DNA of 64,000 bases from Geothrix oryzae (GTDB taxonomy: Bacteria > Acidobacteriota > Holophagae > Holophagales > Holophagaceae), in NCBI RefSeq assembly GCF_030295385.1, contig NZ_AP027079.1:1860001-1924000 (forward strand), in the 5' to 3' direction. Both the position numbers and the translations under genes were made by a program. Positions 41,310-44,338 of the stretch are shown here, in pieces (positions within the stretch are counted from its first letter, which is position 1; each line of letters begins with the position of its first letter). The notes beneath the pieces were generated by a model. It was given only the letters and a program-made list of their open reading frames with translations. It searched no databases and was not told the DNA's origin.

Positions 41310-41350
41310 ACCCCGGGTAGGTTGGCTAAGTGTCAGTGCAGGAATACCCC

Positions 41351-42298
41351 ATGCCCCGCGCCCGAACGCATGAAGAACCCGAGAACGGCTGGCCGCTGGG
41401 ATGGGGCGCCAGCCTACGCGAGTTCCGCACCTTCCTGGCGGTGGAGCGGGGACTTTCGGTCCACACGGCTTCGGGCTACCTCTCCGATCTGAACCACCTG
41501 GTCGTCTGGGCCTGCGATCGGGGCATCTCCGCCACGGACCTGACGCGGGACCACCTCACCGCCTTCCTCGTCTCCCAGCATGCCGAAGGGAAGGCTCCCC
41601 GCAGCCTGGCGCGGATGAGCTCGAGCCTGCGCGCCTTTCTCACCTTCCTCCGCATGGAGGGCGGCGAGGGAGCCGGTCCCGAGGCCGTGGTGAAACCGCC
41701 CCGCCCGCCCCGCATCCTGCCCCGCACCCTGGGCGAAAGCCAGGTGGAAGCCCTGCTGAATGCGCCGGACACGGCCACCCCCCTGGGCGTGCGGGATCGC
41801 GCCTGGCTGGAGCTCCTCTACGCCTCGGGCCTCCGCGTCTCCGAACTGGCGGGGCTCCCGGCCCTTTCGGTATTCCTCGACGAAGGTTTCCTCAAGGTCA
41901 CGGGCAAGGGCCGCAAGGAACGGCTCATCCCCTTCGGCTCCAGCGCCGAGCGGTGGATCCGCGCCTGGCTCGTCCTGCGCCCCGGGTTCAAGCCCAGGGG
42001 CGGCGAACTCTTCGTGGGCCAGCGCGGGGAGGGAATCACCCGCCAGCACCTGTGGCGGCTCCTCAAGGCCTACGCCCTCAAGGCCGGCCTCCGCGTCGAG
42101 GCCGTGAGCCCCCATGTGCTGCGGCACGCCTTCGCCACGCACCTCCTGGACCACGGCGCCGACCTCCGCGCCGTCCAGGCCATGCTCGGCCACGCCGACA
42201 TCAGCACCACCCAGATCTACACCCATGTCCACCAGGCTAGGCTCCGCGCCCTGTACGACCAGATGCACCCGCGGAGCGGCTCGCCTGCGGCCGACTGA
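41351..42298 (+). CDS. xerD: Tyrosine recombinase, XerD-like
   Basis: This 315-residue Xer-type recombinase has a SAM-like N-terminal domain (about 20-108) and a complete catalytic domain: R162 (SGLRVSEL), K186 (GKGRKER), H255 and R258 (HVLRHAFA), H281 (LGHADI) and Y290 (STTQIYTH). The HADISTTQIYTHV segment is the usual XerD version, while the gene at 785 has HASLSTTQRYTH as in XerC. The start is uncertain: ATG 41351 is chosen, but GTG 41330 or 41336 would add five to seven residues. It is divergent from acpP and convergent with the EamA gene. Confidence 0.88.
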   Translation: MPRARTHEEPENGWPLGWGASLREFRTFLAVERGLSVHTASGYLSDLNHLVVWACDRGISATDLTRDHLTAFLVSQHAEGKAPRSLARMSSSLRAFLTFLRMEGGEGAGPEAVVKPPRPPRILPRTLGESQVEALLNAPDTATPLGVRDRAWLELLYASGLRVSELAGLPALSVFLDEGFLKVTGKGRKERLIPFGSSAERWIRAWLVLRPGFKPRGGELFVGQRGEGITRQHLWRLLKAYALKAGLRVEAVSPHVLRHAFATHLLDHGADLRAVQAMLGHADISTTQIYTHVHQARLRALYDQMHPRSGSPAAD

Positions 42299-42311: not shown

Positions 42312-43190
42312 TTACAACTGCGTGAGCAGTACGCCACCCAGCACCAGTGCCGCGCCCACCGCAAAGGCCGGCGTGATGGCCTGCCCGTAGAAGATCCAGG
42401 CCAACAGGGCCGTAGCGACGGGCTGCCCATTGGTGGCGATGGCCACCCGGCTGGGCTCCTTCATGGACAAGGCATGGAACCAGAGCAGGTAGGACACCAC
42501 GCTCGTCATCAAGCCCAGGTAGATCAGACCCACCCAGGCCATGGGCGGAATGGCGGCCACCACCAGCCTCGGCAGCCCCAGGGCGCCGAGGGGCGCGAAG
42601 ATCGCCAGACCGAAGAGGATGGACAGCGTGGTGGCCCGTTGGGCGCCGTGTTTCTGCACCAGGGGCCTGCTCATCACCGTGTAGCCCGCCCAGGCCACGA
42701 CCGCCACCAGCACCATGAGATCGCCCAGGATCCACCGGGGCGGCAACGCCCGGCCGGCCTTTCCTGAGAACAGCACCAGCACGCCTGAAAAGGCCAGCGC
42801 CAGGCCGCCCAGCTTGCGCAGGCCAGGCCGCTCCTGTCCGCGGGCCCAGGCCAGCAGCAGGACCACGGTGGGCGTCAGCGCATAGAGCAGCGCGGCGTGG
42901 GAGGGCAGCGTGAGGGCCAATCCGCCGAGGAAGGCAACCTGGTTCAGGGTGACGCCCAGGAACCCGGCCCAGAGGTAGGTCCGCCAATCACTGCGGGCCA
43001 CCGTCCACAGATCCAGGTGCCGGATTCGAGCCAGCAGAAGAAAGCCCGCACCGGCGATGAGGAAGCGGAGCAGGCCCAGGGCCAGGGTCGGCATCGTGTC
43101 CGCCGCGGTCTTCCCGAGCAGGAAGGTCCCGGCGGAGATGAAGGTGTGAAGCCCCATGACGGCGGCAAAGCGGAAGTTGCGATGGCCCAT
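42312..43190 (-). CDS. EamA/DMT-family transporter
   Basis: This membrane protein of about 292 residues has ten predicted helices in two five-helix EamA halves, the layout of drug/metabolite transporters. Landmarks are AGTFLLGKTAADTMP in the first half, NQVAFLGGLALTLPSHAALLYALTP, and the repeat-like SVVSYLLWFHAL to NGQPVATALLAWIFYGQ in the second. Substrates of the family include amino acids, nucleotides and sugars; none can be inferred here. ATG 43190 has GGAGGG immediately before it, which is close; ATG 43241 is an alternative start. Confidence 0.82.
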   Translation of the reverse strand: MGHRNFRFAAVMGLHTFISAGTFLLGKTAADTMPTLALGLLRFLIAGAGFLLLARIRHLDLWTVARSDWRTYLWAGFLGVTLNQVAFLGGLALTLPSHAALLYALTPTVVLLLAWARGQERPGLRKLGGLALAFSGVLVLFSGKAGRALPPRWILGDLMVLVAVVAWAGYTVMSRPLVQKHGAQRATTLSILFGLAIFAPLGALGLPRLVVAAIPPMAWVGLIYLGLMTSVVSYLLWFHALSMKEPSRVAIATNGQPVATALLAWIFYGQAITPAFAVGAALVLGGVLLTQL

Positions 43191-43291
43191 CCCTCCAGCA
43201 TGGCCAAAGCGGGGCCGGCCCGGGGCCGTCGAAATGAGCATGGACCGCCCCCGAGGGAATGAGCGATGATGGGCCAGGAGCCGCAAACCCT

Positions 43292-44338
43292 ATGGCCGTG
43301 ACCAAGACCCCCCGCAAGAAGCCCGTGACCGCCCCCGCCGATGAGAAGAAACCTGCTGCCAAGGCCAAGGCCCCGCTGAAGAAGGCCGCCCCGAAGAAAG
43401 CCGAGGCTCCGGAACCCAAGGCCAAGGCCGCCCCCAAGGCGCCCGCCAAGAGCAAGGCCACCAAGGCCGCGGAGCTCGCGGCCGAAACCGTCGCCCCCGC
43501 TGTCCCGGCCCCTCTTCCGGAACCGGCAGCGGCCGCTCCCAAAAAGCCTTCGGCCGCGCCGGCCCTGCCGCCCCTGGCCGCGTCCATCCTCGTCGCCATC
43601 CAGGAGGGCCGCGCCGTCGAGTTCATTTTCGCCGATGCGGACGCCAATGCCCCCCGCACCTTCGAGCCGCGCCACCTCACCTTCGATGCCCTCAGCCAGG
43701 CGTGGTATGCCTGGGGCTGGGACCGCCGCTACAACGCCGAGCGCCACCACCGCCTGGATCTGCTGGCCGAGGTGAACGAGGTGGAGGGCATGGGCCGGGC
43801 GGCCCAGGGCCCCTATCCCGAGGGAACCCCCGCCAACCAGATCGGTGGCTGGCTTGGCGGCGACGCCATCGCCGTGAAGGCCACGCTGCTCAAGCAGTGG
43901 GTCTTCGCCGTGAAGCAGGCCCCGCCGGCCTTCCCCCACTTCAAGCTCGAGGAACTGGGTGACGGTCAGGCGCAGGTCACCTTCTCGGCCACGGACCTGC
44001 GGGCCATCGCCCGCTGGGCCATGCAGTTCGGCGACGGCATCCAGGTGCTGGAACCTGCCCGGCTGGTGGATCGCATCAAGCAGGTGGGCGCCGTCTGGGC
44101 GGGCCGGGAACGGCAGGTCAGCGCGCCGGCACCCAAGCAGGTTCAGCGTCCGGAACCTTCCTCCGAGCCCCGCCGCGCCGAGGCCCGTCCCCAGCACGAG
44201 GCGAAGCACGAGGCTAGGCCCGACACGAAGCCCGAGCCGCGGCCCCACCGCGAGCCCCGTCCCGAGAGGGAGCGCGAAGAATCGGCTCCCAAAGGGAAGG
44301 CCGGCAAGGTCGAGGTCATCCGCTTCGACCGCCTCTGA
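43292..44338 (+). CDS. WYL-domain protein with histone-H1-like tails and no HTH
   Basis: This 348-residue protein starts with about 95 residues rich in Ala, Lys and Pro (PKKAEAPEPKAKAAPKA-like, as in histone H1). A WYL domain follows at about 97-165 (QAWYAWGWDRRYNAERHHRLDLL), then a WCX-type domain (about 190-272; LKQWVFAV, RWAMQFGDGIQVLEP). The last 75 residues are again Pro/Glu/Arg/Lys-rich. WYL proteins normally carry an N-terminal helix-turn-helix and act as ligand-responsive regulators; here the HTH is replaced by a lysine tail that could bind nucleic acid nonspecifically. ATG 43259 is an alternative start. It is divergent from the EamA gene. Confidence 0.8.
   Translation: MAVTKTPRKKPVTAPADEKKPAAKAKAPLKKAAPKKAEAPEPKAKAAPKAPAKSKATKAAELAAETVAPAVPAPLPEPAAAAPKKPSAAPALPPLAASILVAIQEGRAVEFIFADADANAPRTFEPRHLTFDALSQAWYAWGWDRRYNAERHHRLDLLAEVNEVEGMGRAAQGPYPEGTPANQIGGWLGGDAIAVKATLLKQWVFAVKQAPPAFPHFKLEELGDGQAQVTFSATDLRAIARWAMQFGDGIQVLEPARLVDRIKQVGAVWAGRERQVSAPAPKQVQRPEPSSEPRRAEARPQHEAKHEARPDTKPEPRPHREPRPEREREESAPKGKAGKVEVIRFDRL

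Follow-up and report, generated by a model that had tools for sequence, protein, structure and literature searches.

The analysis covered a window of 64,000 nucleotides from the complete, 3.27-Mb source genome of Geothrix oryzae (G000:C1:1860001-1924000). The window encodes a WYL-WCX protein that has no detectable helix-turn-helix (HTH) and that carries a long tail at each end. The features of the gene and of its upstream neighbors are collected in Table 1. An in-frame ATG at 43259 was considered as an alternative start codon. This ATG is not conserved, and it is an unlikely start because many relatives have a stop codon ~7 codons 5' of the conserved sequence MAVTKTPRKK.

Table 1. Features of the tailed WYL-WCX locus, in positions of the window
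Feature	Position	Strand	Description
Xer-type tyrosine recombinase (NF001399)	41330..42298	+	Syntenic neighbor upstream
EamA transporter gene	42312..43286	-	Separates xer from the WYL gene in some members of the family; context only
Shine-Dalgarno-like AGGAG	43276..43280	+	11 bases 5' of the start codon; read directly from the sequence
Tailed HTH-less WYL-WCX gene	43292..44338	+	348 aa; ATG 43292, stop codon 44336-44338
N-tail, Ala/Lys/Pro-rich, predicted disordered	43292..43567	+	Residues 1-92, starts MAVTKTPRKK; pLDDT ~45-61
WYL domain	43571..43789	+	Residues 94-166, Pfam stretch 97-161; Sm-like barrel
WCX domain	43868..44101	+	Residues 193-270, Pfam stretch 218-264
C-tail, Arg/Glu/Pro-rich, predicted disordered	44108..44305	+	Residues 273-338; from composition and AlphaFold2
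C-terminal tip KVEVIRFDRL	44306..44335	+	Residues 339-348, conserved

Both domains of the core were matched above their Pfam gathering scores, in agreement with the original prediction of a WYL-WCX core. PF13280 (WYL) was matched with 29.6 bits (gathering score 21.8, E 7e-7) and PF25583 (WCX) with 41.1 bits (gathering score 23.9, E 2.3e-10). The core is acidic overall, with a pI of 5.8. No HTH family gave a Pfam match at E ≤ 10 in the full-length protein. An AlphaFold2 model calculated from 41 sequences was of high confidence only at residues ~92-272, the WYL-WCX linker excepted, and contained no helix in the N-tail. The model of L148 (305 aa), a further member whose tails are shorter, agreed with this, again with a disordered N-tail. 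A hidden HTH was ruled out by Pfam together with the models of the two members, and the predicted absence of this domain was thus confirmed. A split-off HTH gene was not seen upstream, where the neighboring place is taken by xer or by a divergent EamA gene. Where xer and the WYL gene adjoin directly, no separate HTH gene lies between them.

With Z 13.3 over 170 aligned residues (rmsd 12.0), the model was structurally closest to the DriD C-domain in complex with ssDNA. DriD is a WYL activator from Caulobacter (PDB 9cu3, 7tzv, and 8tp8) and shares the WYL-WCX core fold with the tailed protein. PafBC, the mycobacterial ssDNA-activated regulator, was matched with Z 10.7 (163 residues aligned, rmsd 9.5), and PafC was the closest sequence match in the PDB (E 2e-6). 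BrxR was matched by the WYL part alone (Z 10.7, 79 residues aligned, rmsd 2.5). The large rmsd of the DriD and PafBC matches suggests that the WYL and WCX domains of the model are placed differently relative to each other than in these regulators. WYL domains are best known as sensors through which a linked HTH or enzyme is controlled. In DriD, an N-terminal winged HTH and a three-helix bundle contact DNA and RNA polymerase (PMC12340889, in part). Both elements are absent from the tailed protein, which has a predicted disordered tail instead. At the other end, DriD finishes with the WCX domain at residue 327, and the available portion of the same source describes no tailed tip, whereas the tailed protein extends beyond WCX. 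An HTH precedes the WYL domain in over 90% of WYL proteins (PMC6789036, in part). HTH-less WYL proteins are already known, since WYL fusions to enzymes and other domains are listed in a survey (PMC4012209, in part). The protein described here is a WYL-WCX member, but it is not an HTH-WYL-WCX transcription factor of the PafBC, DriD, and SiwR kind. No tailed HTH-less WYL protein with a conserved C-terminal peptide was found in the searched literature, which covered few subscription papers.

Both tails look disordered, with AlphaFold2 confidence of ~45-60 and no helix in either. The N-tail consists of 34% A, 21% K, and 20% P (pI 10.2), and residues 278-348 contain 18% P, 17% R, and 17% E (pI 10.0); the charged character that had been predicted for the tails was therefore observed. 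The comparison among relatives was made with 59 sequences, the window gene and 58 loci, of which L145 ends at a contig edge and was excluded from the N-tail figures. The N-tail has a length of 49-146 aa and a pI of 9.2-10.7 (58 sequences), with a net charge of +2 to +20. The C-tail has a length of 51-104 aa and a pI of 9.2-10.8 (59 sequences), and its net charge is small (+2 to +5). Across the set the composition of the tails is kept and their sequence is variable, so that close relatives do not lack them. The original prediction had likened both tails to histone H1-like proteins. This holds for the composition of the N-tail; the C-tail is an Arg/Glu/Pro polyampholyte of low net charge that ends in a conserved peptide. 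Binding of DNA or RNA by the tails is possible, as is a role of the protein as a chromosome- or RNA-associated sensor.

Such tails are not a general trait of the proteins of the source genome. In a survey of 464 kb, made up of the window and 20 further stretches of 20 kb each, the tail filter was passed by 2 of 364 heuristically called genes, and by the WYL gene at both ends. AAG accounts for 16 of the 19 Lys codons in the tail. The feature is more than chance, because a lysine content of 21% is not expected by drift at 70% GC and because it is rare among the genes surveyed. Elsewhere in the genome, a 285-aa protein without Pfam match (L169:5618-6475, minus strand) has an A/K/P-rich C-terminal tail with 61% A+K+P over 80 aa.

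The most telling feature, the conserved C-terminal tip, was overlooked in the original prediction. The motif [IVL][RH][FIVY][DE][RK]L-COOH ends the C-tail in 59/59 sequences. Counted from the C terminus (n = 59), position -1 is L in all 59, followed by R/K (56/3) at -2, D/E (44/15) at -3, F/I/V/Y (41/14/3/1) at -4, R/H (52/7) at -5, and I/V/L (48/10/1) at -6. Glu341 and Leu348 are invariant in a 41-row alignment. The median dN/dS was 0.16 for the tip and 0.17 for the core, compared with 0.35 for the rest of the C-tail and 0.54 for the N-tail (1314 pairs, which are not independent; the tail alignments are unsure). A search for the tip pattern in 6 genomes of 5 genera (the source genome and five of four other genera) gave one match per genome, each abutting or overlapping the end of that genome's own WYL-WCX ortholog. 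The reversed pattern, applied as a control, gave one match among the same 6 genomes, in G053. Judged by these match counts and by dN/dS, the tip is specific to the tailed WYL protein and is constrained as strongly as the folded core, in contrast to the drifting linker. Such a pattern of constraint is typical of short linear motifs used for docking, and the tip probably grips a partner. In the monomer models of the two members the tip was undocked and of low confidence, and docking onto the protein's own core was not seen. The undocked state is consistent with partner binding; alternatively, it can stem from a failure of the modelling or from contacts within a homodimer.

Within the WYL domain, R122, R145, R146, R151, and H153 are invariant in 59/59 sequences. 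In an alignment with PafB, which is weak (E 0.03), R181, R202, and R208 of PafB correspond to R122, R145, and R151, and Y196 corresponds to position 139 (Y 35/F 24). R122 and R151 thus align with R181 and R208, residues that line the ssDNA entrance. By the same weak alignment, R204 is replaced by Y147 (Tyr in 59/59), R211 corresponds to R154 (R in 52/59, lost in 7/59), and R214 corresponds to L157 (never R, L in 50/59). Binding of ssDNA by PafBC needs the R211/R214 pair as well as R181, R204, R208, and Y196 (PMC11804915, in part). The tailed proteins have the WYL and WCX domains in common with PafB/PafC. For the entrance residues the picture is mixed, with the positions of R181, R208, and Y196 (as Tyr or Phe) kept and R204 replaced. 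The tailed proteins have no HTH and, as far as the weak alignment indicates, do not keep the ssDNA-sensing arginine pair. The basic groove seems to be partly kept or even extended by the invariant R146 and H153, with the canonical pair not kept. Because of the change in this pair and the exchange of R204 for Tyr, the ligand may not be ssDNA. Another kind of nucleic acid, or some other anion, may be bound instead.

Within a single family, Holophagaceae, the gene belongs to the conserved core. An ortholog (E ≤ 1e-98) is present in 68/77 genomes of the family, and this retention argues for a core function. The nine genomes without an ortholog are three small g2 genomes (0.9-1.2 Mb), three of the four g11 genomes, and G022, G026, and G068, which are 58-81% complete. 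No ortholog was found in the 16 other genomes of the class, and outside Holophagaceae there was no match at E 1e-15 among 297 genomes of the phylum. An occurrence in other phyla, which the original prediction had proposed to check, was not found in the genomes searched. Plasmid-borne relatives were absent at E 1e-5. A collection of named genomes contained 58 loci, mostly from Geothrix and Holophagaceae metagenome-assembled genomes (MAGs). Two MAG loci stand under other labels, Bacillota (L151) and Deltaproteobacteria (L155), of which the latter looks wrong.

A tree was calculated from 41 WYL-WCX cores with a midpoint root and 13 of the 23 tailed rows; its bootstrap was not fully settled. The outgroup sampling had 2 of 35 loci without match, and L184, L193, L199, L203, and L204 were left out for a wrong frame or a very weak score. 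The tailed group (13 rows) was supported at 100/100. Its sister group was formed by same-family HTH-type paralogs (G000:C1:2696706, L033; L098-L101; 5 rows, 99/95), and a branch supported at 100/99 united both groups to the exclusion of the 23 other WYL-WCX proteins from the phylum. The branch to the tailed group was long (2.16). In the paralogs the long tails are absent, and the N-terminal region weakly resembles HTH_11 in Pfam (E 0.015 and 0.0094, below the cut-off), with no significant match in the PDB. The outgroup proteins, judged by eye, are mostly HTH-WYL-WCX. The tree thus points to a duplication in the family stem that was probably followed by HTH loss, tail gain, and fast divergence. 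Among the remaining WYL genes of the source genome, two belong to ordinary kinds. One is of the HTH_11-WYL kind (L032). In the other, a WYL domain lies C-terminal in a Helicase_C_3 protein (L035, G000:C1:497838-497987, minus strand); its match reached 19.3 bits with the whole protein, slightly under the cut-off of 21.8 bits, and 23.0 bits in the genome scan, slightly over it.

We tentatively favor, at somewhat less than an even chance, a WYL-WCX protein with a changed output, which on nucleic acid would serve to recruit or to scaffold, in place of a role as a sequence-specific transcription factor. Residues 94-272 would represent the ligand-sensing half of a WYL regulator, with a fold closest to DriD and PafBC, and would probably dimerize via WCX. 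The groove with its re-arranged invariant basic cluster would probably bind a nucleic acid fragment or another polyanion. The promoter-reading HTH would have been lost and replaced by the Lys/Ala/Pro tail of ~95 residues, a putative non-specific tether to DNA, RNA, or polyphosphate. The Arg/Glu/Pro linker of ~75 residues would present the C-terminal peptide, which in turn would dock to a partner. What was computed are the domains, the absence of a detectable HTH, the predicted tail disorder, the conservation, the selection on the tip, and the confinement to the family, whereas the dimer, the ligand, the tethering, and the docking are inferred. The acidity of the core counts against a recruiter that binds nucleic acid or a polyanion. 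A conserved WYL-WCX protein with neither HTH nor enzyme, retained in the core gene set of a whole family and ending in a constrained peptide, would give a clear example of a sensor domain whose output has become protein recruitment. The proposal lends itself directly to testing: there is one copy of the gene, cultured Geothrix species exist, and the tip can serve as bait for a partner.

SSB consists of an OB-fold core, a disordered linker, and a conserved acidic C-terminal docking tip ending in Pro-Phe. The tailed protein would resemble it in having a beta-barrel core, a disordered linker, and a C-terminal docking peptide. The likeness is one of layout only, with an OB fold in SSB compared with the Sm/WYL fold and an acidic tip compared with KVEVIRFDRL. 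It is conceivable, but on the unlikely side, that the core sits on nucleic acid or a polyanion while linker and docking peptide bring in a DNA- or RNA-processing enzyme, which would make the protein an SSB-like hub derived from a damage sensor and essential to Holophagaceae.

Another interpretation, which we regard as improbable, is a nucleoid or polyphosphate tether of the AlgP/PhaF type, where the Lys/Ala/Pro tail would coat DNA or polyphosphate and the WYL-WCX core would have no more than a linking or regulatory role; this is the idea of the original prediction. The histone H1-like AlgP and PhaF have a Lys/Ala/Pro-rich, predicted disordered tail in common with the protein described here. 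The C-terminal domain of AlgP is K/A/P-rich, disordered, and DNA-binding, and AlgP has 25 tandem KPAA repeats and a net charge of +55 (PMC9239181, in part). The N-tail resembles this domain in composition, and all relatives keep the composition despite sequence drift. However, the tailed protein has no tandem repeat (the N-tail contains one KPAA) and combines its WYL-WCX core with a C-terminal peptide that is conserved. The net charge of its N-tail is far below that of AlgP, the charges of its C-tail nearly cancel out, and constraint is strongest in core and tip, not in the K-rich tail.

An RNA-associated Sm/Hfq-like protein is similarly improbable. The WYL Sm-fold would then bind RNA, the tails would bind RNA or ribosomes, and the tip would dock an RNA-processing enzyme or regulate the core by folding back like the Hfq tail. 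Disordered R/E/P-rich tails are common among RNA-binding proteins, and Hfq/Sm chains matched the WYL core with Z 7-8.2, although Z values under 8 are background level in structure comparison. The WYL protein SiwR, however, bound ssDNA and not ssRNA (PMC10693628, in part). Furthermore, no RNA-related operon was seen, and the downstream TtcA gene belongs to a generally conserved block.

There is a small chance that the protein is the HTH-less half of a heterodimer in which WCX pairs with the HTH-bearing paralog and the tailed protein modulates it, similar to PafB/PafC. The paralog G000:C1:2696706 is the closest relative, and PafBC dimerizes through WCX (PMC11804915, in part). However, in the g4 and g6 genomes and in most of the g7 genomes, the tailed gene is the sole match at E 1e-3 or 1e-10. 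The paralog is therefore not an obligate partner, and an obligate heterodimer is disfavored.

The gene lies in a stable housekeeping neighborhood, and no functional link was taken from synteny alone. The widely kept order is uvrB-, fabF-, acpP-, xer+, [EamA-], WYL+, [SBP_bac_5-], thioredoxin-like-, Rrf2+, TtcA+. Where the upstream sequence covers at least 2 kb (46 loci), xer was found upstream on the same strand in 41 loci, and in 14 of these it directly adjoins the WYL gene (EamA absent, gap of -52 to 132 bases; the gap of L108 is not meaningful). Co-transcription with Xer and a role in recombination or chromosome-dimer resolution, the tip docking Xer or another DNA enzyme, would fit this arrangement but has the slightest chance of the explanations considered, since the conservation of the whole block fabF-acpP-xer-wyl-thioredoxin-rrf2 makes the neighborhood little informative, xer is missing from five loci that have the WYL gene (L143, L146, L147, L149, and L155), and the divergent EamA gene intervenes in 19 loci. 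The proximity to defense genes raised by the original prediction was not found; the neighbors are housekeeping genes and no PADLOC match nearby was convincing. Two nearby PADLOC matches are UvrB and a methyltransferase by Pfam, and those of the tailed WYL protein itself are generic WYL models. Over all 58 loci, the EamA gene lies between xer and the WYL gene in 25, a gene gained or lost at one fixed site.
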